A stretch of DNA of 64,000 nucleotides from Halichondria panicea (Eukaryota; Porifera; Demospongiae; Suberitida; Halichondriidae): positions 1,890,979 through 1,954,978 of the forward strand of contig NC_087383.1 in the NCBI RefSeq assembly GCF_963675165.1. Direction: 5' to 3'. Position 1 is the first letter of the stretch; the number at the start of each line of letters is the position of its first letter. A model generated the notes under the pieces. That model saw nothing but the letters and a program-made list of their open reading frames with translations, did not search any database and was not told where the DNA came from. This document shows, in pieces, positions 18,409-44,763 of this stretch. The position numbers and the translations under genes are program-made.

Positions 18409-18760
18409 AATGCATGTACATAGTGGGACCATAGGCAGTGCATGTACATAGTGGGACCATAGGCAGTGCAAAGGCAGTGCATGTACATAGTGCAGTGGGA
18501 CCATAAGCAGTGCATGTACATAGTGGGACCATAAGCAGTGCATGTACATAGTGGGACCATAGGCAGTGCATGTACATAGTGGGACCATAAGCAGTGCATG
18601 TACATAGTGGGACCATACGCAGTGCATGTACATAGTGGGACCATAAGCAGTGCATGTACATAGTGGGACCATAGGCAGTGCATGTACATAGTGGGACCAT
18701 AAGCAGTGCATGTACATAGTGGGACCATAGGCAGTGCATGTACATAGTGGGGCCATAAGC
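18409..18760. repeat. 28-bp satellite array 2 (about 12 units)
   Basis: Same unit as array 1, with two irregular units near 18466-18500 where the repeat is shortened (GGCAGTGCAAAGGCAGTGC) or carries an extra GTGCA. The flanks are not shared with the other arrays. Confidence 0.95.
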
Positions 18761-20129: not shown

Positions 20130-22441
20130 CATCTGCATAGTTCCAATTTTCACTCCAGCTCAGCCATGACACCCGGGTCCATGATTTGATATCTCTTGAG
20201 CAGCTTCTCCTCCATGTCTAGATGACTGCACTTCTAGAAGGTAAAAGAAAAACAAAATAATGCATTTGATAAAGATCTACTCTTATGCAAACAACATTGT
20301 AATTAGTATTGAGAGCAAATACATGTGATGATCATTACCAAATTTACTGGTAAAGGGTCAAACTGTTAGCAAGAGAGTTCATAATAGATGAACTCTTGCT
20401 GTTAGTATGTAAAATTGCCAGCTATGGACCCCAACTAGTACCTACATGCAAATTTTAGGGGGGGGGGAATTGGAGCTAGGGGGAATATCCCCCTTCCCCC
20501 CTGTAGGACACACTGCTCACCCTTTAGAAGACTGCCCCCCCCCCCCCCTATACACACACACTCACCCTTCTAGAAGAATGTCCCACAATAGCCTTCGGAG
20601 CTGTCTCCTTCCTCTTAGCAATCACTCCATCGATGTGCGTCTTGAGTACCTCGTTTCGACTAATCTTGGACGCTAGATACAGCACACCTGCCACTGTAGC
20701 ATGTAGCACCACTCTGTGATGTGCCTCAAGACCTTTCTCCTTCACAGCAAGCTCTTGCAGCTGGTGTAGGAAGACCAGTATATCTGAGAGCCTTTGATAA
20801 GAGAATTCCAGTGTCAGGAGAAATACGAGTTGGTAGAAAGCGAGTGTGTTAGCAGGGCTAGTGCAGAGAGTTTTGGCCAGTTCCAGGAGATTGGTGAAGA
20901 GAGAGTTGACTGTTTTAGAGAGGAATCCTTTCTAAACCACACCCTCCAGACTCACCCAATCACTGCACAATGGGAGGGTATAAATACACGTACATGTAGC
21001 TGTATGCACTGCACATGACATACATGTAGTGAAAGCTAAGACAAAAGCTCATATGGACCTGTGTAACTAACAAATAAAATATAGTGTGCCTCAAATGCAC
21101 ACTGAACATAGCAAGGTACACACACACACACATCCACATACGTGTTGAGAGGAATCTTGTCCTTGTTGGCATGGTATTGTACGAGACGATGCCAGAGTAG
21201 GGCCACATCCAGCTGTGTGTTGGGCTCTCGTATGAGGAGCAATTGAACGAGGGATGCAAACAGTTGCCCTGGGAACGCCGGCTCTAGCACTGATGCGTGA
21301 CAGGTGTCAGCCACCGCCCTCAAACACTTGACCAGGGAGGTAGTCAACATGGGGCTGCATAATAAAGGAGAGAATACAATTATGGAAGCTTAAACACTTA
21401 GTAATGCACGCAGTCTATTGTGCATGGTCACATAATTATAAGCAGGTCATTCTCTATAATATAGTCTACTAAAGGTTACTGCTATAAACAGGATTCACGA
21501 AGGCACCAGAATCAGAGAACACGAACAGTGTTTATGACAGGAAACTAAACACATACTTGTACACAAATAGCTAAATGAAGCAACAGCTTCATAATTACAA
21601 TTCTCACCTGTTTTGAGTGTCTTGAGGTGCCAGAGGATGTACAGACAGTCCAGTACTAGTGGTGGCTCCACTATCAAGACCCCCTGAGGCCACGGGTACA
21701 TAAGAGTTGATGAGCCCCAGTATATCTGGCTTGTGATAGTCGGGAAGGACTCCTGCAAACTCCCCCACAGTGATAGTGATGGATTGCTGAAAGGTCAGAG
21801 AGGACGTGAGGTCGGAGGGGCCTTCTGAAACGGTTTCTATGGAGATACGAAGGTGGCGGACCAGTACAGACGGACCTGCATGAGTGGACACGAGCTAAGT
21901 AATGTAAATACATGTATGCAGATTAAAGCGTGGAATTAAACCATACTATCATATTACTAGAATGTTTTGCGAGCATCAAACATTTGCGAATTTTGCGAGG
22001 GTTGATCAATTCGCAACAATAATATCCGCAAAACCTAAATCATTTCTAGTAAATACACACGATCCTTGCCAGAACGCAATAGTTAGATCGCAAAAGGTCA
22101 AATTTTCTGCTGATTTGGCTCATTCGAAAAGGTTTTTCACCCGCAAAATTATTCTAGTAATACGGTACGTATAATTATAAAGATTAAGCCAGTGTCAAAA
22201 CATACAATGTCATGTACAAACTTTAATAACAGCTATGAAAGTATCTACGTACGAAGAATAAATGCGTATAGCCTTCTTTAGAAAATGGCCCAAAAATAAT
22301 ATGTGCAACCATACAAGTACTTTACCATGGAGACTCACCTAGAGAGCTGTCTGCTGCCACGGCAACACACTTAGAGAGTGTGCCGAGGATCCCTTGTTTG
22401 GTCTCCCAGGACTCCTTCACCTTGGTATCCAGGTGGTCCAC
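20130..22441 (-). pseudogene. EFR3-like partial gene, exons 7 (part) to 10
   Basis: Exons on the - strand: 7 (22339 to about 22441, SKCVAVAADSSL), 8 (21608-21875, VLPDYHKPDILGLINSYVPV), 9 (21142-21354, MLTTSLVKCLRAVADTCHAS) and 10 (20566-20931, GLEAHHRVVLHATVAGVLYL). These match successive stretches of EFR3, the palmitoylated scaffold that recruits PI4-kinase III alpha to the plasma membrane. Exon 8 lacks 18 nt (DIFRTL) present in the other copies, and exon 7 lost its first part at a join with the G-rich minisatellite. Exon 10 keeps FTNLLELAKTL, absent from the 49-kb copy. Exons 1-6 are missing, so this is a stranded 3' fragment. A coiled-coil exon lies beyond at about 20140-20225. Confidence 0.8.
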
Positions 22442-23667: not shown

Positions 23668-26627
23668 ATGGCCACTAAAGAGCAGAACCAAGGTATAAAG
23701 ACTGTCATGTTTCCTATAAAGGATAAACCCAATGATTGCTAAAGCATAAAATCCTCATTGGTGATTGCTAACCTTGTGTACGTGTGCTTGCTATCTATTT
23801 TCAGAGCTCACAATTGACGATCTGAAGACAGAATTGAAACTAACTGATGAGCAGCTCAATACAACAATAAAAGAACCAGATCTACCCGAGTTAGCAGCAT
23901 GTTTCGACAATGTTCACAAAGGCTACCTTGAAAAATTGGAGCTCTCACCTGGAGAACAAACTGACGTGAGGACTAGAGCATATGTAGATGGCACTCTGGC
24001 AGGAATGTTGCTGGCTTTGAAATTCTGGATTCTGACCAACGGACTAGACGCCACTTTCCAAGCTCTGCTACTCGTCATACTCTCCCTGCTCAAAGAAGAC
24101 ATTGCTGTTCGAGTGTGCAAGTACTTGTCTGACAAATGTGAGTCGGTCATGTGAGAATGTGGTCATTGTGGTACCATACGTTGTGGGAGTGATTGTAACC
24201 AAATAAGGGACTGTCACCTTAATTGCTATTGTTACACATACAATTCTCTATTAACTATCACTAGGAATGGTACTCACCTATTGTTTTGTTTCCCCAGACT
24301 CCACCACCTCGTGTCCCCCCTCCCGAGAGAGGGTCCTGCTGAACCACAAGCTGTCCTTGTACAGAGACTACCTACAAAGTCGCTACAGAGCACGAGTATC
24401 CACATCAGCCACACAATGGCCTCCTGTCCCAACAAACAAAGTCTTCAAACTGGCCATGATTCAGAAGGAGAAAATACAGAGAGGAAGAATCGACGATGAA
24501 TTTGTTAAACTAACAATCACAGGAAAAATTGACGATATTTTGCTTCAAAAAACTCCAATTGACTTAATGAATATTTTCTCTGAGATTGGAAATAGACAGA
24601 ACTTTGTGTTGATTGAAGGAGCTCCCGGCTCTGGCAAGAGCACCCTTGCTCTACACATCTGTCAGGAGTGGGCAAAGGGGAAACTGTTCCAAGAGTTTGA
24701 TATTGCAATCCTCGTGAGACTGAGAGATCCCCTTGTTAAAGAAGCAAAAACAATAGAAGATCTTCTCCCTTGTAGGAATTCAACACTGGCGTGCCAAATA
24801 GGGGCAATAATTTCAGGGACTGATGGCAAAGGTGTACTGTGGGTGCTGGACGGATGGGACGAACTTCCTTCTGACCTCCCTAGAGACTCAATCATTAACA
24901 AACTAATTCGACCAGACATGTCACAAAAAGGAGCCCTACACGAATCAGCTGTGATTGTAACATCTCGACCGTCATCTTCGGCTGAGCTCCACCCACTAGT
25001 CTCGTCCAGGGTGGAGGTGTTGGGGTTCACTCCACATCAACTAGAACAGTATTTTACCGAGTGTCTGGAAGGTGACTCACAAGCTGTGCAGACTCTACTG
25101 GAGAGAATTCGAGAGAACCCAGTGGTAGAAGGTAGCTGCTACCTCCCCCTCAATGCTTCCATTGTCGTTAATTGCTTCCTTTCTGACAACCACTCCCTCC
25201 CCACATCCAACCACGGGATATTCACATCGGTTGTCCAAAGCTCTCTCAAGAGATACCTCCAGGAGAAGTTGGGGAAGACCATTCCAGTGGGAGACATCAC
25301 ATCCCCAGACTCACTGCCCTCGGAAATCAGAACAGAGACCGTACAAATGTGTCAACTTGCATATCATGGGATTGAAGCCAACAAAGCAACATTTACTGAC
25401 GGTGATTTGGCTGCTCTTCGCATTACGAAGGACATTTCAAACGTTGGATTATTACAAACTGTTCCCAGCATCATTAGCGATGGTGATCTGGTTTACTACT
25501 GCTTTCTCCATCTGTCTATTCAAGAGCTACTAGCAGCAATCCACATCTCTCTCATGTCTCCCAAGCAACAAATTTCTGTATTCCAGAAGCTATTTGGTAG
25601 TCCTCGATTCAGTGCAGTCTTCCAATTTTATGCTGGTATCACCAAACTGAGAACTAGTAGACCAATCCTCAGCTTGCTACCTCGATTCTTGTGTCCAGTT
25701 CCAGCCACTGTTTTTGATCTGGTCAGAAAGGTTGTCAAAACTGAGAAAGAGAAGAAGTATTATGAGCCGAAGCCCCTTTTGTTGTCCCTCATCAATTGTT
25801 TGTACGAAGCTGAAGACTCGCGACTGTGTGTGTTTGTGGCTAATCTTCTTAATCACAATCTAGATCTTGATTACACTACAATGAATCCCATTGACTGCCT
25901 CTCTGTTGGATATTTCGTATCAGCTTGTTCCAACACCAGTAATGGATTCACACTTAGCCTCCGAGATTGCTCTATTGGTGACCAAGGCTGCAAATTTCTG
26001 GCCCGAGGACTCTCCAAGTGTCCTAACTCTAATAATGATATTCCTACAGAAGGGATACACATCGCTGAGATTATCGAGAACACTAGTTCAATATCTGAAT
26101 TGGATTTGTCTAATAATGCCATTGGTAACAGTGGACTTTGCGAACTCTGTGCGGCCTTGTCCACTAACACATCATTAAAGAGCCTGTCCCTGAGCAATTG
26201 CTCACTAACAATATCAGACGACAATGGAGCTGCCCTCTATCAACTTCTGAATACAAACGATTCCCTCGAATATCTTGATTTGTCTCATAACACAGTGACT
26301 AGCTGTCGTCACATTGCTGCTGGACTTGCAGTTAATAAGACTCTGAGAACATTGAACTTGGATGACTGTGAACTGACTGATCAGAGTATCGAGGAGCTAT
26401 CAACTGGACTGATCAACAAGATTGAAACACTGTTCATTAATGGTAATGCCTCAATAACAGAAGATGGAATGAAGACGCTTGCCAGACATCTAACCACCCA
26501 CTGCTCTGAACTGACATGGTTGGGGATACCCGACCACCTAATATCCTGTATCGAGACAGTATTCAGGGACACTAACAAAGAGAGGAAGAGAAATGGACTA
26601 CCCGAGATTAATGTGTTAGATTATTAA
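23668..26627 (+). CDS. NLR-3: intact Death-NACHT-LRR receptor, three exons
   Basis: Exons 23668-23692, 23805-24137 and 24298-26627; phases fit exactly and give 895 residues. Start chosen because MATKEQNQ plus donor GTATAA is identical at five loci. Death-like domain about residues 9-118 (ELTIDDLKTELK ... VRVCKYLSDK). A helical region (residues 120-215) leads into NACHT: Walker A GAPGSGKS at 227-234, Walker B LWVLDGWDEL at 300-309, TSRP at 341-344. LRRs about 665-850, C-terminus NVLDY. Known: such NLRs are cytosolic sensors that oligomerise through NACHT and signal by homotypic Death-domain contacts. No signal peptide or membrane segment. The variable stretch before Walker B (RNSTLACQIGA) is shared with NLR-2 rather than NLR-1, -4 and -6. 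The hairpin seen before other copies is absent. Confidence 0.95.
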
Positions 26628-27170
26628 TTTATAATTAATTGATTATTATTAATAATTAATGTTTAGTTATAATTATATTATGATTATTGTTGTTATTAAT
26701 TAATTAATAAATGTTAATTAATTTGTTGTGTTATGCATCTAATCTCTATCATTGGTCAATATAATTATAGCACATGTACAGATGGTGACGAGTGAATTCA
26801 ATGCTTCCTACTGACACGGAGAGCATGTCATGCACTAGCTGTATGTATGTAACTGAATACACTATTGTAATAATGCTATAATCTCCACCTAGCTAGCCTC
26901 CTTCACAGGCTTTCAAGAGAAGTGCGGCATGGGCCGGGATCGAGGCTAATCTCGACATGATTTACTTTGACAACAATTATATTATTACTAGGACAATTTA
27001 CAAAACAGTTAGTGCACAGAAGACTAGAAATATGTCGGCACATTACATAACAATTACCTAAAAACAAATCAGTTGGAATTGGTCAATATATAGCACAGTA
27101 ATAATGATGGTTTAAATTCAATGCTCCCTACAGTGTCACAGAGAGCACATGCACTGTACGTATAAAACTG
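26628..27170. other. NLR 3' flank, no gene; shared with NLR-4
   Basis: AT-rich sequence followed by CACGGAGAGCATGTCATGC and GCCTCCTTCACAGGCTTTC. Near-identical sequence follows NLR-4 (about 38845-39410), so the 3' flank duplicated together with the gene and the adjoining IQGAP tail. Confidence 0.6.
26706..26711 (+). terminator. Candidate polyadenylation signal of NLR-3
   Basis: AATAAA 79 bp after the stop codon, in a very AT-rich 3' flank. The corresponding AATAAA after NLR-4 is at 38940-38945. Position fits, but AT-rich sequence makes chance occurrence easy. Confidence 0.35.
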
Positions 27171-27610
27171 TCAATGAATGTAGTGGAAATCCAATTTAAC
27201 GCTCTGTCGATTTTTGTTTATGAGGAAGATGAGCAGATTAATGTTCACTTTGGCCCTTCCAAACATCTTCATGATTGCTAGGCCCTCGTATTGCAGCTGA
27301 AGGAGGTCCTGTGTGGGGAGAAGAGAGGGCAGTGAAACACTTCAACTAGTATAAGACAAAGAATGCATGTATTTGTAAGACAAATGAATACATGTACTTA
27401 CATACACCGTACAAGCATACCAACACTATACCTGACACAAGGCAGTAAACTTCTTAAACACTTTACGTACCTACCAAATTAATTCTACCTGTACACACAC
27501 CCTCACCTGGAGGACCAGCTCCACCTTCTCTATCTGCTTGACGTGATCTCAAACACAATACTTTCGAACCTGAACCTGGGCGAGTAAGAAATAATGTTCA
27601 CATAATTATA
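27171..27610 (-). pseudogene. IQGAP-like C-terminal exons, copy d
   Basis: Last exon 27171-27308 is intact: DLLQLQYEGLAIMKMFGRAK, then VNINLLIFLINKNRQS and stop after FHYIH. The penultimate exon (about 27507-27575) carries the shared 43-nt deletion (VFEIT joined directly to KQIEKVELVLQ out of frame). The GAP-related exon present in copies c and e is missing because the block breaks off near 27795. Convergent with NLR-3. Confidence 0.78.
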
Positions 27611-29213
27611 GCATAACGTTGCACATAAGATCAAGGTCGTAGCAAGAGGTCAGGCTGGTCAGGTTTTGGCCTAACCACTTTAGCAGCTGGGTAGGTAATG
27701 GTCGTAAATATTGTAAGTGATAATGCGCATGCTGTTTTGGTGAGGAAAAGTGATGACCTTTTTCTTAGGTAAAAAATTCACCACTGTATGCAAAAGTTGC
27801 AGAAAAAGACAAAGAATGCATGTATTTGTAAGACAAATGAATACATGTACTTACATACACAGTACAAGCATACCAACACTATACCTGACACAAGACAGTA
27901 AGCTTCACAGCTTACTGTCAACAGTAACAGGAAAAACACGATAAACTCTTAAACCAACAGACAATAATCATGGAAAGTTAATAATTTTCTGCTGATTTGG
28001 CGTTTTTTACCAACAAATAATATCTAGTCCAGTACTAATTTAATGTACAAAGATGCAGTGCATAATGTAGGCCATAATCTGTACAGGTATACTGTACCAC
28101 TTTTATTACCTGTTGTTTGTAGCACTCAAATATCTACCCCATCGGCACACTGCTCTACTCCAACTCCTCACAGCAATCCAGTGCCTTCTTGAGCTCTTCC
28201 TCCATCACAAGTCTCTCTTGAACAGCAGACTGGGTAATAGATTGCATGGTGGTCATGTACACACACACAGGTATACAGATACAACCATCACAACATCGTG
28301 GTAGTGGTACAGTAGTTATATAATTGCAGGTACATGTATTAATGAAAGCACCGCGGGTGCTGATGCCTCGGTGGAGGTGCAAAGCTACATAACATAAAGT
28401 TACACACATTATCATGATGAACATTTTTGCATTTTTGCTGCATGCAAACTCAAATTGCATGGTGGTCGATCATGTACACACACACACACACAGGTAATAC
28501 AACCACCATGTGGTAGTGGTACAGCTGTTTGCTCACTGCATTACCACAAAACAACAAAATACCATACAATGTTGCTATGCAAACAACATGTGGTCCTAAG
28601 CAATGATGGCTTCTAGCACTTGTATGTTAAATGGGGTACTTTTTGAGGGTTACAAAAATGGCTAATCTGCGAGACCCTCAAAAATTACCCGCTATAAGGT
28701 GGCATCAATATTATAGTAAAATAATGCTCTCACGATCTACTCTTGGTGGTATGAAAACTCACATACAAATTATGGTGAGGATCTGAAATGGAGAATGGGC
28801 GGGGACTAGCTTGCATATACCAGCAGATATGATATACATGTAGCTACTAACCGTCCACTGAATGTATGGAAAGCAGTGTGAAGGCTGAAGAAACTGTTAG
28901 TACGAAGTACTGCAAAGGACATCAAACACTGACAGATCACAAAAGATAGTTTAAGCCTGCTGCTTATACAAATGTATGAGAAATGTGAAATATGTTCGGA
29001 ATTATTGGTCAAACCGATATACCACAGTGAGCGAATCAGCCATCTGCAGGTTCCTTAGCGTAACAATTTTTCGTTCAGCATGCAAGTCTCAGCACAAGGT
29101 GTTGATAGACCATTCTCCATATCAAATCCTCCCCGGTTCTATTAGTTTCCATAGTCTAGTTCTAGGGTATAATCAGTATCTTGGTTGGCTTCTGTTATGA
29201 TTGTCAGTATTAA

Positions 29214-29469
29214 CAGGAGCCCATAAATAAGAGAAGGAGCAGCTGACTACGGGGATCACGTTTCGTAAGTGGTTATGACCGCATTTCCATATATGCAGAG
29301 TCACTTAAGTGGTTGAATCCCTACACGTGTTATACACAATACAGGGCTGCGGTTTGCAAGCACTTAGTCGCTTCCAAACAAGGAAGTGCGGTTTCACCGG
29401 CAATTACGAGACGTGATCCCCGAGTATACGTTGAAGTTAGCCGCTCCTTCTCTTATTTATGGGCTCCTG
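29214..29469. mobile_element. 256-bp foldback element with 7-bp target duplication
   Basis: Ends CAGGAGCCCATAAATAAGAG and CTCTTATTTATGGGCTCCTG, flanked by GTATTAA at 29207-29213 and 29470-29476. Inner arms ATCACGTTTCGTAA and GAGACGTGAT also pair. Duplicated with its block at 42007-42265. End sequence and 7-bp target size suggest kinship with the 19574 family. Confidence 0.88.
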
Positions 29470-30370
29470 GTATTAACAAGGCAACAAAAGCAATCTGAAT
29501 CATAACTTGGAATTGCCTGTAAAATGTAAACCTCTTATAATAAGGAAATTTTAGGGAGCTGACTGTATTTACTATCTTTTACTATCTATGCATTTTATCC
29601 GGGTCTAACTACCACTGCATATGTAGTGAATCAAATCTGAAAGGAACTTGTGTTGCTCAAAATTGGATTTTCCCAGAAGCAGCTTGTTGACCTCGAGCAT
29701 CAAGCATAAATGAGTAGGAGGAATGATAATGCTGTGCAAGTAGAGTACATACTCTTTAAGTTGTGTGAAAGTCTGCAGTATAGATAGTCTGTAAGATGCA
29801 TCACTTTACTGTGATTTTGTGATGTGTGGGTGGTGCATGTGGGTGGATTAAAATAACACAGACAGAGGTAATCACTACATTGTGGTTGCAGTGCTCTTGC
29901 AAAGGAAAACCACAGTACTAGCAACTTCATTAGGAAGAGTATGCAACTCCACATACTTAAAACCGTAGTAGGCGTTCTGTTCAACCGTCGTCACATGCTG
30001 TCAGGGTTTCATAGGATAAAAACTTGGGGGGAGGGGAAGGTGTACGTGCACCGAAAAATGTTGACCACACCTCCTATTACATCACTATACATAAAGGTTC
30101 ACCCAAACCCTGGCTGTCGTGAAATCTTAAATTAGGATGTTTGCAATGAATTATCAAGTACCTTTACAAGGGCTAGCACATTGTATCTCAAGTGTCTGTG
30201 GTTACAATCAGGGTTTCATGAAGAGGGGTGGGAGCACTCAGATTTCCCAAAATTCCCCCCTGGAAACATGAACAATTAATGATGTACCAAATTGTACAGT
30301 GAGATCTAGTACATGTAGCTATAATGATTATTCTACATGTATCAGTCAGATCAGTTGAGAAAAAGCCTCT

Positions 30371-30522
30371 TACGTCCGTATAGCGGGTATATTTCGAGGG
30401 TATAAATTTTCGTGCTATAGCGCCCTTTTTGCAGCATGCATGCAATATTAAATTCGCGGTTTATGCCTAATCCGCGAAAACACGAACATTTATACCCTCG
30501 AAATATACTCGCTATACGGTAC
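30371..30522. mobile_element. MITE-like inverted repeat (CCGTATAGCGGG family)
   Basis: CCGTATAGCGGGTATATTTC on the left and GAAATATACTCGCTATACGG on the right, with CGAGGGTATAAATTTTCG against CGAACATTTATACCCTCG inside. A longer version with an extra internal piece is at about 43412-43605. Confidence 0.75.
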
Positions 30523-30646
30523 ATCATGTCCATTTTGATCTAGCACATGGTACAGTTCAAAAGTTCAGACAGGAGATGTACATACACAAAATGGATGTGT
30601 ACAATTATTATATGATACCCTTTGAAATTTAAACCTTACAACATAA

Positions 30647-31283
30647 GCAGTGCACGTACATAGTGGGACCATAAGCAGTGCATGTACATAGTGGGACCAT
30701 AGGCAGTGCGTGTACATAGTGGGGCCATAGGCAGTGCGTGTACATAGTGGGACCATAGGCAGTGCGTGTACATAGTGGGGCCATAAGCAGTGCATGTACA
30801 TAGTGGGACCATAAGCAGTGCATGTACATAGTGGGACCATAGGCAGTGCACGTACATAGTGGGACCATAGGCAGTGCGTGTACATAGTGGGGCCATAGGC
30901 AGTGCGTGTACATAGTGGGGCCATAGGCAGTGCATGTACATAGTGTGGCCATAGGCAGTGCGTGTACATAGTGGGGCCATAGGCAGTGCGTGTACATAGT
31001 GGGGCCATAGGCAGTGCGTGTACATAGTGGGGCCATAGGCAGTGCGTGTACATAATGGGGCCATAGGCAGTGCGTGTACATAGTGGGACCATAGGCAGTG
31101 CGTGTACATAGTGGGGCCATAGGCAGTGCGTGTACATAGTGGGGCCATAGGCAGTGCGTGTACATAGTGGGCAGTGCGTGTACATAGTGGGGCCATAGGC
31201 AGTGCGTGTACATAGTGGGGCCATAGGCAGTGCGTGTACATAGTGGGACCATAGGCAGTGCATGTACATAGTGGGACCATAGG
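30647..31283. repeat. 28-bp satellite array 3 (about 23 units)
   Basis: Same unit as array 1 but with different dominant variants (GCGTGTACATAGTGGGGCCA). The left flank (CCTTTGAAATTTAAACC) is shared with array 4; the right flank jumps into the sequence beyond EFR3-like exon 10 (TATCCCCCTTCCCCCCTGTA), otherwise found near 20490, 48985 and 58690. The array marks a join between two duplicated blocks. Confidence 0.97.
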
Positions 31284-31358
31284 ATATCCCCCTTCCCCCC
31301 TGTATGACACCCTGCTCACCCTTTAGAAGACTGCCCCCCCCCATACACACACACTCAC

Positions 31359-32176
31359 CCCTCTAGAAGAATGTCCAACCATAGCCTTAGGAGCTGTCTC
31401 CCTCCTCTTAGCAATCACTCCATCGATGTGCGTCATCTTGAGTACCTCATTTCGACTAATCTTGGACGCTAGATGCAGCACACCCGCCACTGTAGCATGT
31501 AGCACCACTCTGTGATGTGCTTCAAGGCCTTTCTCCTTCACAGCAAGCTCTTGCAGCTGGTGTAGGAAAGACCAGTATATCTGAGAGCCCTTGATAAAAG
31601 AATTCCAGTGTCAGGAGAAATACGAGTTGGTAGAAAGCGAGTGTGTTAGCAGGGCTAGTGCAGAGAGCTTTGGCCAGTTCCAGGAGATTGGTGAAGAGGA
31701 GTTGACTGTTTTAGAGAGGAATTCTTTCGAAACCACACCCAGTGAGAGCCCGACAGCCTCCAGACTCACCCAATCACTGCACAAGGGGAGGGAGGAGTTA
31801 ACGGTGCAGTACTCTATAAATACGTGTACATGTAGCTGTAAGCACTGTACACCATAATTATACACAACCACACTATCATTGATTGTGTACACAGGGAAAA
31901 TTAAGACAAAGCTCCAAACATGCACACACATGTACTTACATGTATAACTGACAAGTATGCCTCAAATGCACACTGAACATACCAAGGTACACACACACAT
32001 GCACCACGTACGTGTCGAGAGGAATCTTGTCTTTGTTGGCATGGTGATCTACGAGACAATGCCAGAGTAGGGCGATATCCAGCTGTTGCCCTGGGAACGC
32101 CGTCTCTAGCACTGATGCGTGACAGGTGTCAGCCACCACCCTCAAACACTTGACCAGGGAGGTAGTCAACATGGGG
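31359..32176 (-). pseudogene. EFR3-like fragment, exons 9 and 10, degraded
   Basis: Exon 9 (32012-32176) lacks the segment FASLVQLLLIREPNTQ found elsewhere. Exon 10 (31359 to about 31727) has a 2-nt deletion near 31700 that shifts the frame, and its acceptor reads TTTCG instead of TTTAG. Remaining sequence (GLEAHHRVVLHATVAGVLHL) is clearly EFR3-like. No exons 1-8 are attached; upstream (- strand) is kinesin-related sequence. Not expected to be functional. Confidence 0.8.
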
Positions 32177-32439
32177 CTGCATAATAAAGGGGAAGTATAT
32201 GGAAGCTTAAACACTAGTAATGCAGTGAAACCGTGCAGTCTATTGTGGTCACGCAGGTCATCCTCTATAATACAGCCACTATTAGTCTACTCAAAGACTA
32301 CAATAATTAAGTTTTACAAAGGCGCCAGAATCACACTAAGTACTTTTACATAGAACACGTACATGTACAAACAGTGTTTATGACAGGAAACTAAACACAT
32401 GCATGTACACAAATAGCTAAATGAAGCAACAGCTAAACA

Positions 32440-34564
32440 TTCCCTCTCACCTCCTGATCATGCAGGAACTTCATAAACCTGGTGTACTTAGGACTCGTCA
32501 CATGATCTTAGAGCAAAAAATACGGACGTGGTCGAGGATTTGAGTGGGGCTAAAGTGAGAAAGGAGGTTGTGGGGGGAGGGACCTCAGACCAGGGCTGGT
32601 GGGACGCAGTGTCATGTGAGAGAAGACTCGGACACATGGTCCTCCGTCTGGACAGCTGCTGTGAGGAGAATGAGAACTGTAAAGCACTGGATTTGAAACG
32701 TACTCTTTTGTACCACATAACTAATGACCTCACAAACACACCACTTGGTGTGCAACCATTAATTGTACTCTTAAAGTGAGTGAGCTCACCTTTGGTAGTG
32801 CTGACTTATCACAGTTGTTTGTCCAATTCTCCAGAATTCTGAGCTTCCCCTAGAGGTACGTGACAGAATATCTAATTATATATAAGACTTTAAGTTGTGA
32901 GGTTGAGAAAAGAGCTCCAATAATTATACATTAATTAGTAGACACTGAATAAGCAGATGACCAGATACTAATTCAGAAACAGACATACATGTTGGTAGTC
33001 CTAGGACATATTGCAGTGCTTATAATTATAGCTATTCGAGGGTGCTCTGTCAAAGTCAGCCATAAAGTTATTGTTAATTTAATACATGTACATGTACCCG
33101 GGTATATAGGGAGCGAGTGCAGACAACTACACGTGTACATATATTATCGAGGGTGCAAAGAACCCGGTATCTGGCACTCTTATATGCACATGATCAGTCT
33201 ACTTGCTATTAGCGGCCTCTCAAAATTGCATGGCTAAGAAACTTGCAGCAATAATTATACCGAAACCATTTTATTAAGGAGCATGTTAATGCGTACTACT
33301 ATATCTATTCAACAGAACAACCAACCTGTATATTAAAATACATACATGTACCCTGGGAGCAATGCAGACGTCAATCAGTCAAGTATTTATTAACAGCTGT
33401 AGGCACACACTTGCCCAACCCACTCACCAGAGAGGACACCCTGATAGTGCCGTCACTGTGTTCCTCATCTCTAACCTTGCTTTTAATGGTCAGCTTGTAA
33501 ATCGAGGTATGGGAAAAACGCTCCAATGTAAACACTGAAAGTGTAGTACTTCAGAAACAGACATGCAGGTTGGTTGTCCTATATTGCAGTGCTTGTAATT
33601 ATAGCTAGTACAAGGGTGTTCAGTCATGCAAAGTAGACTACGTTACCATAACAACATGATCCATTAATCTAAACATCTTCATACATGCAAAATTCAGTCC
33701 ATAATAAAAGAGAGAGAGTATCGAGCATATCGTTACCTTGCATCAGATGTATTCGGAGTGTAACATTACACCCTGTCTGAACAACTTGTGGCATAAAATG
33801 TTTCTACCTCGAGGTAAGTAGCGGCTTCGGGTACTCGGATTGTTTGGTTAAAAAGCAGGAAGTTACGTCACTTTCCGAATACATTTGACCCAAGGTAATG
33901 CTACGTTGGATACTCCCTCTCTTTTATTATGGACTCTTGCTATTAGCGGCCTCTCAAAACTGGTAAGAAACTTAAGCAACTGTAATCACATGACGTACGT
34001 ACATGTACCGACACCATTTTATGAAGGAGAGAGTATAATTATACAAAGCAGTACATTCAACGTGGGATTAATATAAGGACTGCACATTTCCATGCAGTGC
34101 ATACTGTACAATGTAACTATAGTAACTCACACGGTTCACTCTGATAACTTAATTTGATATGATCTTCATCAAAAAAGCAACGGGAAGTTTTACTTGATTG
34201 GCTACTGTATCAGCTTGTCCCAAAACTGCTCACCCGTGGCACCTGTTGCACTTACACGCTCTGACCAGCCAGGTCAACCAGGCTCTGAACACAGAGAAGG
34301 AGGTAAAATCATCATAATAACAATAACTTATATGTACATTTACACATACATAGTCTGTACGTGTAGATCAAATTAAAGCAAAATAGTCGACCTAGTGTAT
34401 GTTCACAGCTGTAGGCACACACTTGCCCAACCCACTCACCAGAGAGGACACCCTGATAGTAGTGCCATCACTGTGTTCCTCATCTCTAACCCTGCTTTCA
34501 ATGGTCAGTTTGAATATTGTGTGTGATCTGGAGTTGTGCTCGGTAGATCCAAATGTCCGGTTCT
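32440..34564 (-). pseudogene. Kinesin motor fragment (kinesin-7/CENP-E-like?) with tail exons
   Basis: Exon 34440-34564 reads NRTFGSTEHNSRSHTIFKLT, IESRVRDEEHSDGTTIRVSS: the NxxSSRSH-type switch I region of a kinesin motor. The next exon (about 34241-34274) encodes LVDLAG, the switch II motif, but one base is missing before SER, so the frame shifts. A second, shorter copy of the switch I exon is at 33430-33500, where the HNSRSHTIF part is gone. Downstream on the - strand are a degraded LENWTN exon (about 32781-32862) and a damaged Ser/Thr/Pro exon (about 32450-32660). The P-loop exon is not present. Known: kinesins are microtubule motors. Subfamily assignment rests only on the short motif context and is tentative. 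Confidence 0.7.
33705..33945. mobile_element. Diverged foldback element
   Basis: AAAAGAGAGAGTATCGAGC on the left and GTTGGATACTCCCTCTCTTT on the right, with GCAGGAAGTTACGTCAC inside. Same family as 7391-7605 and 19574-19892, more decayed. Confidence 0.55.
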
Positions 34565-34599
34565 CTGAGCAGAAGAGATTATACACATTACCAGCACAT

Positions 34600-35700
34600 C
34601 AGGTGCACAGGCAGCATGCATGTACATGTACACACAAGGCTAAGTCTGAGAGGACACACTAGGGCAGACCAACAGTGGCTGTAATAAAGAGGTGACATGC
34701 TAACACAGGTTGCATGAAACCAACCCTATGGAGACTGGGCCATTAACCTGGCTACAGGGTGATCACATTAGACAGACAGGTTCACAAAGGTGCACAAGTG
34801 ATATAGTGACTTACTCGACTAGTAAATATCTTGGGGAGGGAAATCGGCTCCTCAGACAACCCAACCAACTTATGAGTTAGCCTAGCTTGCACTAATTTAA
34901 AGCCCTATTGATTTATTAGTCATAAAAGTGCAACAATAGCAGCAGCCATTGTGAACTTTGACCGCTTTGGAGATACATAATTATGGCAGGAAATGCAACT
35001 TCTGTTTCCTATAATTATTGGACAGCTAATTCTCTAGAGGTGCACACTTAATACACGGCAATTGGAGAGTACCAAAACTCAACTCTGCAGTTCTGGTACT
35101 GTAAGACCTCTAATTAAGGCAACCCTCCAAATATGCGACACTCTCGAGCTTAGGTAATTTTCTGACTTCTACGACAGCTACGTTGACAATTATGTTTTAA
35201 TGTCGCGTCCTAAATGAGGTAAATATAGCCACACCCTAGCATCGGTTTTGGAAAACACGTTCTAGAAATTGAGGCAAGTATAGACTGAGTAGAGCTATCC
35301 ATAATCAGATACGACATCAGGTTTTTATCAACCTCCAAAAGAAGCGACATCTGGCTTCGTAATTATTTAAAAAAAGTGTTGCTTTAATTAAAGGTCTTAC
35401 GGTATTAAATCATATTCTTACTTGAAAACTTGAATACGTCGGGTTCATTACTGACAGGACAGGATTCTCAGCCTCAAACTGTGCAAATTAAAGAACAGAA
35501 AACATGATCCACGACCTTACAACATAACTTAAACCTGTAGATTTAATAACCAGACAATTTATTATTATTGATGAACCAGACAATAATCTATGGCTGATCA
35601 ATTGACTCACCCTCTTTCCATTCGGAGAATGCTGTAATATTTTAGCAATGCGATGGAGCTAAAAGCTAGATAAACTATGGTTTCACTCAAATGTCTTTGG
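34600..35700. other. No gene seen apart from one recurring segment
   Basis: Only the FEAEN-type segment near 35450-35485 recurs elsewhere. About 35100-35400 is a diverged version of 7680-8010 (AAGTGTTGCTTTAATTAAAG). Confidence 0.4.
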
Positions 35701-35719
35701 TGGGTGTGGTATTAAATGC

Positions 35720-35766
35720 AAAAGTGGGTGTATCTCATTCTTAGATATCTGAGATACACCCACTTT
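35720..35766. promoter_or_regulatory. Hairpin upstream of NLR-4 first exon
   Basis: Left arm 35720-35736 and right arm 35750-35766 pair (AAGTGGGTGTATCTCA), with the same AGATATC loop as before NLR-2 and NLR-6. It ends 80 bp before the start codon at 35847. The loop is one base different but the arms are preserved. Confidence 0.6.
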
Positions 35767-35846
35767 TTTTGCAAGTCATGCAAAAACAACCAATATATTT
35801 CAAAGAGATCTAGAGCTAGCTGCAAGGCACAGATTTATTTGCTGGA

Positions 35847-38783
35847 ATGGCCACTAAAGAGCAGAACCAAGGTATAAAGACTGTCATGTTTCCTTTAAAG
35901 GATAAACCTAATGATTGCTAAAGCATAAAACCCTCATTGGTGATTGCTAACCTTGTGTGCTTGGCATCTATTTTCAGAGCTCACAATTGACGATCTGAAG
36001 ACAGAAATGAAACTGACTGATGAGCAGCTCAATACAGCAATACAGGAACCAGATCTACCCGAGTTAGCAGCATGTTTCGATAACACTGATGACTATCTTG
36101 AAAAGCTGGAGCTGTCGCCTGGACAGAAAACTGACGTCAGCGAAGTGAAGGCTAAAACACGTCTAAACCGCACTCAAGCCGGAATGAAACTTGCCCTAGA
36201 ATACTGGCAGAACAAGAACCAACTACAAGCCACCTTCCAAGCTCTGCTACTCATCATACTCTCCCTGCTCAAAGGAGCCGTTGCTGTTCAAGTGTGCAAG
36301 TACTTGTCTGACAAATGTGAGTCTGTCATGTGAGAGTGTGGTCATTGTGGTACCATACGTTGTGGGAGTGATTGCAACCAAATAAGGGACTGTCCACTTA
36401 ATTGCTATTGTTACACATACAATTCTCTATTAACTATCACCAGGAATGGTATATACTCACCTATTGTTTTGTTTCCCCAGACTCCACCACCTCGTGTCCT
36501 CCCTCCCGAGAGAGGGTCCTGCTGAACCACAAGCTGTCCTCGTACAGGGACTACCTACAAAGTCGCTACAGAATGCAAGTATCCACATCAGCCACACAAT
36601 GGCCTCCCGTCCCAACAAAGACAATTTTCAAACTAGCCATGATTCAGAAGGAGGAAATACAGAGAGGAAGAATCGACGATGAATTTGTTAGGCTAACAAT
36701 TACGGGGAAAATCGACGATATTTTACTTCAAAAAACTCCGGTTAACTTGACAAACATTTTTTCTGAGATTGGGGATAGGCGAAACTTTGTGTTGATTGAA
36801 GGAGCTCCCGGCTCTGGCAAGAGCACCCTTGCTCTACACATCTGTCAGGAGTGGGCAAAGGGGAAACTGTTCCAAAAGTTCGATATTGCAATCCTCGTGA
36901 AACTGAGAGATCCACTTGTTAGAGAAGCGAAGACAATTGCTGACGTACTTCCCTGCATTGATACGGCCGTGGCTAACAAGACAGAGGCAGTTATAAAATC
37001 ACTGTATGGCAAAGGTGTACTGTGGGTGCTAGACGGATGGGACGAGCTTCCTTCTGACCTCCCTACAGACTCAATCATCAACAAACTAATCCGACCAGAC
37101 ATGTCACAAAAAGGAGCCCTACACGAATCAGCTGTGATTGTAACATCTCGACCATCATCTTCGGCTGAGCTCCACCCACTAGTGTCGTCCAGGGTGGAGG
37201 TGTTGGGGTTCACTCCACATCAACTAGAACAGTATTTTACCAAGTGTCTGAATGGTGACTCACAAGCTGTGCAGACTCTACTGGAGAGAATTCGAGAGAA
37301 CCCAGCGGTAGAAGGTAGCTGCTACCTCCCCCTCAATGCTTCCATTGTCGTTAATTGCTTCCTTTCTGATAACCACTCACTCCCCACATCCAACCACGGG
37401 ATATTCACATCAGTAGTCCAAAGCTCTCTCAAGAGATACCTCCAGGATAGGTTGGGGAAGACCACTCCTGTGGGAGACATCACATCCCCAGACTCACTGC
37501 CCTCGGAAATCAGAACAGAGACCGTACAAATGTGTCAACTTGCATATCATGGGATCAAAAACAACAAAGCAACATTTACTGACAATGATTTGGCCACTCT
37601 TCGCATTACGAAGGAAATTTCAAACGTTGGACTATTACAAACTGTTCCCAGTATCATTAGCGATGGTCATCTGGTTTACTACTGCTTTCTCCACCTGTCT
37701 ATTCAAGAGCTACTAGCAGCAATCCACATCTCTCTCATGTCTCCCAAGCAACAAATTTCTATATTCCAGATACTGTTTGGTAATCCTCGATTCAGTGCAG
37801 TCTTCCAGTTTTACGCTGGTATCACCAAACTGAGAACTAGTAGACCAATCCTCAGTTTGCTACCTCGATTCTTGTGTCCAGTTCCAGCCACTGTTTTTGA
37901 TCTGGTCAGAAAGGTTGTCAAAAATAAGCCGGCGATCTTTTTGTTGTCCCTCATCAATTGTTTGTACGAAGCTGAAGACTCGCGACTGTGTGTGTTTGTG
38001 GCTAATCTTCTTAATCACAATCTAGATCTTAATCACATTACAATGAATCCTATTGACTGCCTCTCTGTTGGATATTTCGTATCAGCTTGTTCCAACACCA
38101 GTAATGGATTCACACTTAGCCTCAGAAGTTGCTCTATTGGTGACCAAGGCTGCAAATTTCTGGCCCGAGGACTCTCCAAGTGTCCCAACTCTAATAATGA
38201 TATTCGTACAGAAGGGATACACATCGCTGAGATTATCGAGAACACTAGTTCAATATCTAAATTGGATTTGTCTTATAATGCCATTGGTAACAGTGGACTT
38301 AGCACACTCTGTGAGGCCTTGTCCACTAACACATCATTAAAGATCCTGGACCTGGACTCTTGCTCACTAACAATATCAGACGACAATGGAGCTGCCCTCT
38401 ATCAACTTCTGAATACAAACAATTCCCTCGAACATCTTAATTTGTCTCATAACACAGTGACTAGCTGTCGTCACATTGCTGCTGGACTTGCAGTCAATAA
38501 GACTCTGAGAACATTGAACTTGGGTAACTGTAAACTGACTGATCATAGTATCGAGGAGCTATCAACTGGACTGATCAACAAGATTGAAACACTGTACATT
38601 TGGTACAATGCCTCAATAACAGAAGATGGAATGAAGACGCTTGCCAGACATCTAACCACCCACTGCTCTGAACTGACACGATTGTACATACCTAGACACC
38701 TAATATCCTGTATCATGACAGTATTCAGGGACACTAACAAAGAAAGGAAGAGAAATGGACTACCCAAGATTTATGTGTGGTAA
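35847..38783 (+). CDS. NLR-4: intact Death-NACHT-LRR receptor, three exons
   Basis: Exons 35847-35871, 35978-36316 and 36481-38783 join in phase to 888 residues. The Death-like domain is of a second type: after LAACFDN it reads TDDYLEKLELSPGQKTD and LNRTQAGMKLALEYWQNKNQ, clearly different from NLR-3 and NLR-6. Walker A is at residues 229-236 (GAPGSGKS), Walker B (VLDGWDEL) near 302-311, TSRP follows. After the NACHT-associated helices the charged KNEKEKKY loop is replaced by the shorter KNKPAIF. LRRs read LDLSYN, LDLDSC, LNLSHN, LNLGNC, LYIWYN. Ends IYVW. The hairpin lies upstream; an IQGAP-like tail is convergent downstream. Expected role as for NLR-3: cytosolic ligand sensor signalling through the Death domain. 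Confidence 0.95.
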
Positions 38784-40724: not shown

Positions 40725-43720
40725 CACGATAAACCCTGAAACCAACAGATATAATCAGACAATAATCATGGAAAGTTAATAATTTTCTGCTGATTTGGCG
40801 TTTTTTACCAACAAATAATTATCTAGTCTAGTACTAATTTAATGAACATAGATGCAGTGCATAATGTAGGCCATAATCTGTACAGGTATACTGTACCACT
40901 TTTATTACCTGTAGCACTCAAATACCTACCCAATCGGCACACTGCTCTGCTCCAACTCCTCACAGCGATCCAGTGCCTTCTTGAGCTCTTCCTCCATCAC
41001 AAGTCTCTCTTGCACAGCAGACTGGGTAATAGATTGCATGGTGGTCATGTACACACACACAGGTATACAGATACAACCATCACAACATCGTGGTAGTGGT
41101 ACAGTAGTTATATAATTGCAGGTACATGTATTAATGAAAGCACCGCGGGTGCTGATGCCTCGGTGGAGGTGCAAAGCCACATAACATAAAGCTACACACA
41201 TTATCATGATGAATATTTTTGCATTTTTGCTGCATGCAAACTCAAATTGCATGGTGGTCGATCATGTACACACACACACACAGGTAATACAACCACCATG
41301 TGGTAGTGGTACAGCTGTTTGCTCACTGCATTACCACAAAACAACAAAATACCATACAATGTTGCTATGCAAACAACATGTGGTCCTAAGCAATGATGGC
41401 TTCTAGCACTTGTATGTTAAATGGGTACTTTTCGAGGGTTACAAAAATGGCTAATCTGCGAGACCCTCAAAAAATTACCCGCTATAAGGTGGCATCAATA
41501 TTATAGTAAATGCTCTCACGATCTACTCTTGGTGGTATATATGGAAACTCACATACAAATTATGGTGAGGATCTGAAATGGAGAATGGGCAGGGACTAGC
41601 TTGCATACACCAGCAGATATGATATACATGTAGCTACTAACCGTCCACTGAATGTATGGAAAGCAGTGTGAAGGCTGAACAAACTGTTAGTACGAAGTAC
41701 TGCAAAGGACATCAAACACTGCTGACAGATCACAAAAGATAGTTTAAGCCTGCTGTTTATACAAATGTATGAGAAATGTGAAATATGTTCGGAATTGTTG
41801 GTCAAACCGATATACCACAGTGAGCGAGTCAGCCATCTGCAGGTTCCTTAGCGTAACAATTTTTCGTTCAGCATGCAAGTCTCAGCACAAGGTGTTGATA
41901 GACCATTCTCCATATCAAATCCTCCCCGGTTCTATTAGTTTCCATAGTCTAGTTCTAGGGTATAATCAGTATTTTGGTTGGCTTCTGTTATGATTGTCAG
42001 TATTAACAGGAGCCTATAAATAAGAGAAGGAGCGGCTGGCTACGGGGATCACGTTTCGTAAGTAGTTATGACCGCATTTCCATATATTATGCAGAGTCAC
42101 TTAAGTGGTTAAATCACTACACGTGTTATACGCAATGCAGGGCTGCGGTTTGCAAGCACTTAGTCACTTCCAAACAAGGAAGTGCGGTTTCACCGGCAAT
42201 TACGAGACGTGATCCCCGAGTATACGTTGAAGTTAGCCGCTCCTTCTCTTATTTATGGGCTCCTGGTATTAACAAGCCAACAAAAGCAATCTGAATCATA
42301 ACTTGGAATTGCCTGTAAAATGCACACCCCTTATAATAAGGAAATTTGATGGGTGTTTTAATTTGGACAAATTCCCAAATTCCAATGTTCTGGTGGACAC
42401 AACGTCACTGTATATAGTATTGCATTGCATTCGCCAAATAATTACCAAATTTTCCAGCTGTACAGTACGTCAACTCTCCTCATATTTCGTCTAACTGAAG
42501 TGATTGCGATGGTACGTAGCTCAGCTAACTTGTTGCTTGATTCATTGTGGCAAAATAATATGAACTCAAACTTGTATGTATAGGGAGCTGAGGGCCTGTA
42601 TTTACTATCTTTACTATCTATGCATTTTATCCGGGTCTAACTACCGCTACGTATGTAGTGAATCAAATCTGAAAGGAACTTGTGTTGCTCAAAATTGGAT
42701 TTTCCCAGAAGCAGCTTGTTGACCTCGAGCATCAAGCATAAATGAGTAGGAGGAATGATAATGCTGTGCAAGTAGAGTACATACTCTTTAAGTTGTGTGA
42801 AAGTCTGCAGTATAGATAGTCTGTAAGATGCATCACTTTACTGTGATTTTGTGATGTGTGGGTGGTGCATGTGGGTGGATTAAAATAACACACAGACAGA
42901 GGTAATCACTACATTGTGGTTGCAGTGCTCTTGCAAAGGAAAACCACTGTACTAGCAACTTCATTAGGAAGAGTATGCAACTCCACATACTTAAAACCGT
43001 AGTAGGCATTCTGTTCAACCTTCGTCACATGCTGTCAGGGTTTCATAGGATAAAAACTTGGGGAGGGGGGGAAGGTGTACGTGCACCGAAAAATGTTGAC
43101 CACACCTCCTATTACATCACTATACATAAAGGTTCACCTAAACCTTGGCTGTCATGAAATCTTAAAATAGGATGTTTGCAATGAATTATCAAGTACCTTT
43201 ATAAGGGGCTAGCACATTGTATCTCGAGTGGCTGTGGTTACAATCAAGGTTTCATGAAGAGGGGTGGGAGCACTCAGATTTCCCAAAATTCCCCCCTGGA
43301 AACATGAAAAATTAATGATGTACCAAATTGTACAGTGAGATCTAGTACATGTAGCTATAATGATAATTCTACATGTATCAGTCAGATAAGTTGAGAAAAA
43401 GCCTCTTACGTACGTATAGCGGGTATATTTCGAGGGTATAAATTTTCGTGGAAATGCCTTTAGAAAGGTTTTCGCGAATTTAATTTTCGTGGTATAGCGC
43501 CCTTTTTGCAGCATGCATGCAATATTAAATTCGCGGTTCATGCCTAATCCGCGAAAACTAGGAACATTTATACCCTCGAAATATACTCGCTATACGGTAC
43601 ATCATATCCATTTTTATCTAGCACATGGTACAGTTCAAAAGTTCAGACAGGAGATTACATACACAAAATGGATGTGTACAATTATTATATGGTACCCTTT
43701 GAAATTTAAACCTTACAGCA
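40725..43720. repeat. Segmental duplication block B, copy 2
   Basis: Counterpart of 27950-30640. Holds a coiled-coil segment near 40920-41035 on the - strand, the foldback element at 42007-42265 (TSD GTATTAA), an extra stretch at about 42345-42580 with no recognisable gene, and the MITE at 43412-43605. Otherwise no gene supported. Confidence 0.8.
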
Positions 43721-43721
43721 T

Positions 43722-44763
43722 AAGCAGTGCATGTACATAGTGGGACCATAGGCAGTGCATGTACATAGTGGGACCATAGGCAGTGCATGTACATAGTGGG
43801 ACCATAGGCAGTGCATGTACATAGTGGGGCCATAGGCAGTGCATGTACATAGTGGGACCATAGGCAGTGCGTGTAAATAGTGGGACCATAGGCAGTGCAT
43901 GTACATAGTGGGACCATAGGCAGTGCATGTACATAGTGGGACCATAGGCAGTGCATGTACATAGTGGGACCATAGGCAGTGCATGTACATAGTGGGGCCA
44001 TAGGCAGTGCATGTACATAGTGGGACCATAGGCAGTGCGTGTACATAGTGGGACCATAGGCAGTGCGTGTACATAGTGGGACCATAGGCAGTGCGTGTAC
44101 ATAGTGGGGCCATAGGCAGTGCATGTACATAGTGGGACCATAAGCAGTGCATGTACATAGTGGGACCATAGGCAGTGCATGTACATAGTGGGACCATAGG
44201 CAGTGCATGTACATAGTGGGACCATAAGCAGTGCATGTACATAGTGGGACCATAGGCAGTGCATGTACATAGTGGGACCATAGGCAGTGCGTGTACATAG
44301 TGGGGCCATAGGCAGTGCATGTACATAGTGGGACCATAAGCAGTGCGCATGTACATAGTTGGACCATAGGCAGTGCATGTACATAGTGGGACCATAGGCA
44401 GTGCATGTACATAGAGGGACCATAAGCAGTGCATGTACATAGTGGGACCATAGGTAGTGCATGCATGTACATAGTGGGACCATAGGCAGTGCATGTACAT
44501 AGTGGGGCCATAGGCAGTGCACGTACATAGTGGAGCCATAGGCAGTGCATGTACATAGTGGGACCATAAGCAGTGCATGTACATAGTGGGACCATAAGCA
44601 ATGCATGTACATAGTGGGACCATAGGCAGTGCATGTACATAGTGGGACCATAAGCAGTGCATGTACATAGTGGGACCATAGGCAGTGCATGTACATAGTG
44701 GGACCATAGGCAGTGCATGTACATAGTGGGGCCATAGGCAGTGCATGTACATAGTGGGACCAT
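43722..44763. repeat. 28-bp satellite array 4 (about 37 units)
   Basis: Same unit as arrays 1-3, with a few irregular units (GCGCATG near 44344, GCATGCATG near 44458). The left flank is shared with array 3; the right flank (TTAGCTAAAAATCCTGCTTG) matches 18987, which is not next to an array there. The ORFs of 340-393 codons on the - strand are products of the repeat. Confidence 0.97.

Follow-up and report, generated by a model that had tools for sequence, protein, structure and literature searches.

Hypervariable residues on the leucine-rich repeat strands of an amplified NACHT receptor family in the sponge Halichondria panicea

The sponge family among described NLR systems

Nucleotide-binding leucine-rich repeat receptors (NLRs) of animals are described, in a passage of a paper on fungal relatives, as sensing relatively invariant patterns (PMC4986451). 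The present analysis concerns an amplified NLR gene family of the sponge Halichondria panicea, in which a NACHT domain is joined to leucine-rich repeats (LRRs). Its starting point is a 64,000-nucleotide stretch of contig NC_087383.1 (positions 1,890,979 to 1,954,978, forward strand; G000:C7:1890979-1954978 in our notation), hereafter the window, in a eukaryotic genome of 131 Mb and 39 contigs. We consider it probable that the genes of this tandem family stay similar in their signalling half through recombination, and that diversifying selection maintains the differences in their sensor face. In its working, this family of contig C7 (the C7 family) seems to resemble the highly variable NLRs (hvNLRs) of plants and the NWD genes of fungi.

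In plant hvNLRs (RPP13, RPP1 and others), high-entropy residues, exposed aromatics among them, form periodic spikes on the predicted concave face of the LRR, and membership of the class requires at least 10 positions of 1.5 bits among alleles within a species; in RPP13, most of the tested high-entropy positions are positively selected (passages of PMC8226289). The C7 family is similar in having 44 columns of at least 1.5 bits, 28 of them in the LRR, but these are found among paralogues rather than alleles, and its members carry NACHT where the plant receptors carry NB-ARC. Indeed, NB-ARC is absent from the nine Pfam families listed for the sponge genes, which do not have the plant architecture. 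The fungal NWD genes het-d and het-e share with the C7 family a NACHT domain, the exchange of conserved repeats between paralogues and a small number of positively selected surface codons per repeat; they differ in having WD40 (or ANK or TPR) repeats and no LRR, in the near identity of the units within a gene and in that repeat-induced point (RIP) mutation has been proposed for them (passages of PMC1805685 and PMC4986451). The combination of repeat-segment exchange between paralogues with positive selection on surface codons, as in the NWD genes, was found in the sponge family as well, with no WD40 family among its Pfam matches at E<=0.001.

Among animals, the NLR-B30.2 genes of zebrafish represent a comparable NACHT-LRR expansion, with most genes on one chromosome arm, a positively selected recognition module and gene conversion that acts differently on the two gene ends; there, B30.2 is the selected part and the LRRs are 'not particularly variable', whereas in the C7 family the LRR is the variable module (passages of PMC4852459). 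Positive selection that includes LRR sites, as here, has been reported for bird NOD1, NLRC3, NLRC5 and NLRP3; those comparisons are of orthologues between species, with 5 of the 39 selected LRR codons of NLRC5 in the LxxLxLxxN/CxL segment, while the sponge comparison is of paralogues and is focused on the strands (passages of PMC8105094). Like the C7 family, the NACHT-LRR expansion of the sponge Dysidea avara is large and lineage-specific, and some of the Dysidea genes have DEATH or CARD; the term 'positive selection' has 0 occurrences in the main text of that paper, and its available passages contain no residue-level analysis (PMC12909245). The titles and abstract beginnings among the literature matches listed describe no strand-focused diversification of the LRR in an animal NLR. 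In Amphimedon, large lineage-specific NACHT-LRR expansions, again with DEATH or CARD in some genes, were reportedly found by Yuen in 2014. The variable lymphocyte receptors (VLRs) of lampreys carry their variable residues on concave strands, and they are somatically assembled and extracellular. The C7 family is unlike them, as its diversity is present in the assembled genome and its proteins are NACHT receptors.

Variable strand positions and the fold of the LRR

A preliminary description of the window had proposed that three of its paralogues, NLR-1, NLR-3 and NLR-4, differ mainly at the x positions of LxxLxLxxN motifs over a fixed leucine scaffold, which was read as diversifying selection on specificity. 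The quoted motifs are present in all three genes; the interval to which they had been assigned, 23668-38783, contains NLR-3 and NLR-4, while NLR-1 lies at window positions 1-2142. The inference was right, yet the three window genes alone could not secure it, as the contrast that they give in the ratio of replacement to silent diversity (piN/piS) is modest: strand positions have 1.42, the remainder of the LRR has 0.53 and the part before the LRR (pre-LRR) has 0.37.

The analysis was extended to the whole family. A search of the genome with NLR-3 gave 60 scored exons among 335 first-look candidates, 59 on contig C7 and one on C1. The match spans the full length in 47 of them, one being the query and the other 46 having 87-96% identity to it, and is split into two pieces in 13, indicating extra LRR sequence. 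The frame is open over 783-916 aa in 59 of the 60 exons, and L036 has one stop. A 25-nt LRR pattern occurs at 82 places, corresponding to the 60 exons, 12 internally deleted copies and 10 further members (five with long frames, five interrupted within the stretch fetched); altogether these are 59 + 5 long open frames, one frame with one stop, 12 internally deleted copies and five interrupted ones. The 60-exon set is biased toward intact copies, and the 10 extra members (L072-L081) were left out of every statistic. Upon removal of L016, which equals L015, 59 distinct rows were aligned by codon over 761 columns, each of them holding 40 rows or more; the near-identical duplicates L003 and L058 were also dropped in the site models, the simulations, the strand-sharing analysis and the third-base test, leaving 57 genes.

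The strand positions are represented by offsets -2, -1, +1, +3 and +4 from the first leucine of eight LxL strands, 40 in all, and were defined from the LxL motif after the alignment had been inspected. The permutation, shift and site-model tests were run on all 40, while the 28 with entropy above 1 are termed hypervariable, and their divergences are partly selected by design; pair counts omit gapped codons. In the alignment, the 15 most variable columns all fall inside LxL strands, and exposed LxL-strand positions account for 18 of the 20 most variable of the 761 codons. The variation expected at the x positions was seen at offsets -1, +1, +3 and +4, with mean entropy highest at +1 and +4, and not at offset -2. 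Among the 44 of 761 columns that reach 1.5 bits, 24 of the 28 in the LRR are strand x positions; the other 16 precede the LRR, with 10 in the NACHT region, and variation is thus not restricted to the LRR. In terms of piN/piS, exposed strand positions reach 2.18, other LRR positions 0.60, the pre-LRR part and NACHT 0.35 each and the strand leucine scaffold 0.11; the scaffold is indeed nearly fixed, with a piN of 0.016 per site at its 16 strand columns. None of 20,000 random draws of LRR columns had a mean piN as high as that of the 40 strand columns (0.73), and a strand set displaced by 1-14 codons had 0.49 at most; an even spread of variable codons was looked for and not found. The residues N, D, Y, S, R, G, H, T and W together make up 81% of the strand positions, and a distinct set of 32 strand residues is present in 56 of the 57 genes, with a mean difference of 20.2 residues.

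The NLR genes and the broken copy of the window lie on the + strand. NLR-3 (family copy L001) comprises an N-terminal helical exon with an open frame at 23765-24154 and a NACHT-LRR exon with a 790-aa frame at 24255-26627, in which the NACHT domain occupies 24606-25067. NACHT membership is given by Pfam matches of 69.9 bits (NLR-3, PF05729) and 72.4 bits against a cut-off of 26.7; the LRR_6 match reaches 40.7 bits against a cut-off of 23.4, and matches to the NOD2 winged helix are weak. The best sequence match among solved structures is NLRP3 (phmmer 3.6e-25), with NLRP5 and RNase inhibitor lower down. Judging by these similarities to NLRP3, NOD2 and RNase inhibitor, the genes appear to be NLRs of the animal type, and two of three features of an animal-type NACHT-LRR receptor are present, namely NACHT and an RNase-inhibitor-type LRR. 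A patch of NACHT (alignment columns 143-163) has high silent as well as replacement diversity (piS 0.26, piN 0.13, 150-200 bin) and perhaps represents a few old sequence types exchanged between genes.

The predicted model of the NLR-3 NACHT-LRR exon is poor outside the LRR (mean predicted local distance difference test score, pLDDT, 48.1) and fair to good at residues 571-748, where 10-residue pLDDT means are 71-87; the blocks holding strands 1 and 2 have a pLDDT of 76 and 71. When the sites were mapped on it, as the preliminary description had advised, the eight predicted strands (residues 493-495, 523-526, 571-575, 601-603, 631-633, 657-659, 683-685 and 713-715) coincided with the eight LxL motifs, and one more short strand was predicted after them, at 744-746. 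In the DNA, the hypervariable positions of strand 1 lie at 25857-25874 (a strand in the model; columns 510-515), and those of strands 2 to 5 at 25950-25967, 26097-26114, 26181-26198 and 26271-26288. Strands 6, 7 and 8 (26349-26366, 26427-26444 and 26517-26534) have 51, 47 and 45 distinct four-residue sets, respectively, in 57 genes. The LRR model superposes on RNase inhibitor (4per_A) with a Z of 23.5 and a root-mean-square deviation (rmsd) of 3.8 over 269 residues, and on NLRP3 (8ej4_A) with a Z of 23.3 and an rmsd of 3.9 over 267 residues. Offsets -1 and +1 flank the buried leucine within the strand, and +3 and +4 come after it. Because the strands match the LxL motifs and the LRR is RNase-inhibitor/NLRP3-like, the variable sites would be on or adjoining the concave sheet, their facing being taken from that fold. 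In the 13 copies L048-L060, the extra LRR sequence sits between strands 3 and 4, and the added strands, by eye, vary too.

Selection on the strand codons and recombination of the gene body

The proposal of diversifying selection at the strand positions was upheld by counting and by site models with one tree and with block trees, all of which place replacement above silent change. The site model was a home-made FUBAR-like grid with MG94 codon rates, in which a site was called positive at P(beta>alpha)>0.95; since a single-tree model cannot be trusted alone in the presence of recombination, one tree was also used for each block of 32 codons. With block trees, replacement rates exceed silent rates at 28 of the 40 strand positions, compared with 15 of 213 other LRR columns, 15 of 508 pre-LRR columns and 1 of 170 NACHT columns (twice the log-likelihood difference, 2dlnL, 206.5). 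A single LRR tree gave 49 positive sites, 28 of them strand positions (2dlnL 398), and a tree from scaffold codons gave 42, with 29 at strand positions and 13 outside (2dlnL 873). Simulations without selection, neutral codons included, yielded 0 of 260 positive sites in each of four runs. When 10-codon blocks were reshuffled and one tree was used, 5, 8 and 10 of 260 sites were called, with 2dlnL up to 41. Equal base frequencies and a fixed transition ratio were assumed in the simulations. As this false-call rate is close to the 15 of 508 seen before the LRR, the pre-LRR rate can be explained by shuffling, while the strand rate cannot. Moreover, where non-duplicate genes are separated by one or two silent changes per about 161 silent LRR sites (12 pairs listed), 16-34 of 84 hypervariable nucleotides differ. 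New residues at exposed strand positions are thus favoured by selection, as shown by counting and the home-made site model.

Recombination joins near-identical 5' parts to different LRRs. Of the 17 gene pairs with at most three pre-LRR differences, two represent duplicates of the whole gene, and in each of the remaining 15 between 9 and 25 of the 28 hypervariable codons differ. Flanks were compared for fifteen pairs, with the row L033/L045 unused (its LRR start was wrong and the motif was not found). Eight of the pairs most alike in their 5' parts show no difference over 643-646 nt of upstream DNA, against 13-94 differences at about 156 positions of the 3' flank. The upstream DNA is not shared by all close pairs, as L001 and L004 have 183 upstream differences against 6 in the exon before the LRR. 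L013 and L036 share an identical run of 2,476 nt, from about 910 nt upstream of the trimmed start of the NACHT exon to 40 nt inside the LRR; it extends past the first strand, and the DNA on either side is diverged. Such an island is what would be left by a gene-conversion tract covering the signalling half and ending at the sensor. L013, L015 and L031 are 98.8-99.3% identical over 3.5 kb upstream, so that duplication or crossover fits these pairs equally well. At the level of single sites, all four gametes were found in 31% of informative site pairs less than 30 nt apart and in 53% of those beyond 800 nt, and r2 declines with distance from 0.195 to 0.029, in a linkage analysis of 285 sites, 229 of them pre-LRR. 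Within the LRR, exact sharing of a 30-nt strand block is rare (0 to 52 of 1,596 gene pairs per strand) and predicts sharing of the next block in only 4-29% (strands 1-5). LRR segments are therefore reassorted, but new replacements at strand codons are required too.

Several points weigh against the reading of a selected sensor on a recombining body. The diversity was measured among paralogues of one assembly and not among individuals, and three pairs of copies at separate places (L002/L003, L015/L016 and L057/L058) are so alike, or identical, that they could be assembly duplicates. The site model was not PAML or HyPhy, some strand sites hit the top of its rate grid with a single tree, and one tree rather than block trees served for the analysis of the reshuffling simulations. 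Sites outside the strand set are called as well, 30 with block trees (15 pre-LRR, 15 LRR) and 21 of 49 with the single LRR tree. The conversion-type island is clear only in comparisons with L036, one of four genes compared over their flanks. There is also room for older haplotypes or raised mutation. Finally, the N-terminal exon, at the place of the death-fold effector domain of animal-type receptors, has no Pfam match and no PDB profile match at E<=10 and no Foldseek match at E<=0.001; its model is mostly helical, with a pLDDT of 57.6.

Mechanism, alternative readings and the wider locus

In the mechanism that we propose, a conserved signalling body, made of the N-terminal helical exon, NACHT and a winged-helix/helical part, bears a short LRR of the RNase-inhibitor type with hypervariable residues at its exposed strand positions. 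Selection, as shown by counting and by the home-made site model, favours new residues at these positions, and recombination between copies couples near-identical 5' parts with different LRRs, by a conversion-like tract in one pair and by routes that fit crossover or duplication too in the others, with single strands shared without their neighbours. The outcome would be a germline receptor repertoire in which each member has its own binding face and all have one common output. By comparison with NLRP3/NOD2-type proteins, a microbial or non-self ligand on the concave face may free NACHT to oligomerise, and the oligomer would signal through the N-terminal domain. The variable strand positions may set ligand specificity.

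The diversification could also serve allorecognition or the sorting of symbionts rather than the detection of pathogens, a reading that agrees with both the selection and the recombination in the mechanism and that we regard as rather unlikely. The sequence itself names no ligand, and some of the fungal NWD genes, which show the same evolutionary pattern, act in allorecognition (passages of PMC1805685). The present data hold no positive evidence for it. It also has against it that the cytosolic NLRs of animals and plants are mainly sensors of pathogens or danger.

A dedicated mutator, templated or deaminase-like, might write bases one and two of strand codons in active genes, with selection acting as a filter, but this is very improbable. 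The third base is nearly fixed (heterozygosity <0.1) in 12 of the 24 most variable strand codons, where bases one and two average 0.51 and 0.44, and even the bin of lowest silent divergence has a hypervariable divergence of about 0.28, as such a mutator would have it; in the other 12 columns, however, the third base changes too, and codon sets such as TGG/TAT/AGG/GAA match no single template base. In the targets of diversity-generating retroelements, substitutions are restricted to template adenines; no single-base pattern was found across the columns here, and no search was aimed at a mutator gene, a template or a reverse transcriptase. Silent diversity speaks against the mutator as well. In hypervariable codons, heterozygosity is 0.48 at the first two bases versus 0.075 (standard error 0.026) for always-silent third-base C/T, and the latter is equal to the pre-LRR level of 0.075 and not clearly above that of the other LRR (0.042). 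It is threefold that of non-variable columns within three codons (0.025); strand codons carry more silent diversity than the other LRR, with strand leucines at 0.125 versus 0.079 for other LRR leucines and 0.107 for pre-LRR leucines. At the strands, the increase in silent change is modest at most, and that in replacement change is large.

Broken copies provide a further control. Twelve copies that hold the last strands differ by 0.039 per nucleotide at 15 hypervariable codons and by 0.016 in the other LRR, whereas intact pairs of similar LRR divergence (0.018; n=161) differ by 0.339 at these 15 codons. The control covers few lineages and 15 of the 28 hypervariable codons, and the 0.039 is inflated by L063, which is misaligned beside the deletion; broken copies also change freely, and intact pairs at equal total divergence may be older. 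A mutator acting on the sequence itself should affect both intact and broken copies, so that sequence-driven hypermutation is disfavoured by the near invariance of the twelve, together with the silent third positions, whose diversity does not go beyond that of the pre-LRR part. A mechanism active only on intact genes, transcribed or meiotically paired, could raise change at strand codons while gene conversion returns the DNA 5' of the LRR to one common signalling body, and it appears no more probable than the dedicated mutator.

It is even less probable that assembly or haplotype mixing made many of the apparent paralogues. The three (near-)identical pairs at separate places are what this would produce, but the result persists in the 57 genes left when one of each pair is removed, and flanking DNA differs in most of the pairs compared. 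The least probable reading is relaxed constraint, in which exposed LRR residues drift without selection for change, as might suit surface residues that lie outside the hydrophobic core and are for the most part small and polar, and very rarely proline (0.1%), but drift alone cannot raise replacement over silent change, as is seen at 28 of 40 positions with block trees, and simulations that included neutral codons called 0 of 260 sites.

The remaining genes of the window belong to the same family. NLR-1 (1-2142; copy L038) has a NACHT-LRR exon open to its stop, with its start upstream of the window, and is 87.7% identical to NLR-3 over 709 aa. NLR-2 (8814-9383) is a truncated NACHT exon whose frame stops within NACHT. 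NLR-4 has an N-terminal helical exon (35944-36333) and a NACHT-LRR exon with a 793-aa frame (36402-38783; copy L037), and NLR-5 likewise has an N-terminal helical exon (62794-63177) and a NACHT-LRR exon (63335-64000; copy L046), given from the trimmed alignment start, which continues past the window. At 54220-54985 (start approximate) an internally deleted, frame-broken copy joins an N-terminal exon to an LRR end; together with L061-L071 it forms a set of twelve C7 copies of a single NLR pseudogene with an internal deletion, and an insertion of about 250 bp near the LRR end is present in four of them, namely the window copy, L061, L068 and L070.

Three very similar fragments of one coding sequence (20548-20931, 48975-49427 and, on the - strand, 58724-59122) lie among the NLR genes, and pieces of another gene therefore seem to be part of the duplicated unit; no confident Pfam family was found for the two fragments tested and no PDB match for the one tested. 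The window also contains four arrays of a 28-bp minisatellite (15892-17230, 18474-18760, 30642-31283 and 43719-44763), with 10 to 48 copies and 93-96% match. As 28 is not divisible by 3, these arrays have all three reading frames open, and the long open reading frames listed there are probably not genes. Two other tandem arrays lie at 45464-46205 and 50733-51012, with periods of 91 (or 271) and 33. Elsewhere in the genome, NACHT clusters are also dense on C13, C14 and C16, as judged from the best 102 of 265 candidates scored, all 102 above the family cut-off. The second NLR cluster, on C14 (12 members fetched, 10 with long frames), is more mildly variable than the C7 family, with 12 of its 25 most variable columns, by eye, at strand positions.

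Collectively, an animal-type NLR in which the concave LRR strands are the selected and reassorted module looks like a parallel to the resistance genes of plants. The focus of selection on the strands suggests, by analogy, direct and specific ligand binding, and it makes testable the idea of specific, germline-encoded recognition repertoires in organisms without lymphocyte receptors. In particular, the 40 strand positions provide exact sites for typing between individuals and for binding assays. If a mechanism acting only on intact genes were true, the genome would have, within its NLR genes, a germline counterpart of an antigen-receptor repertoire.

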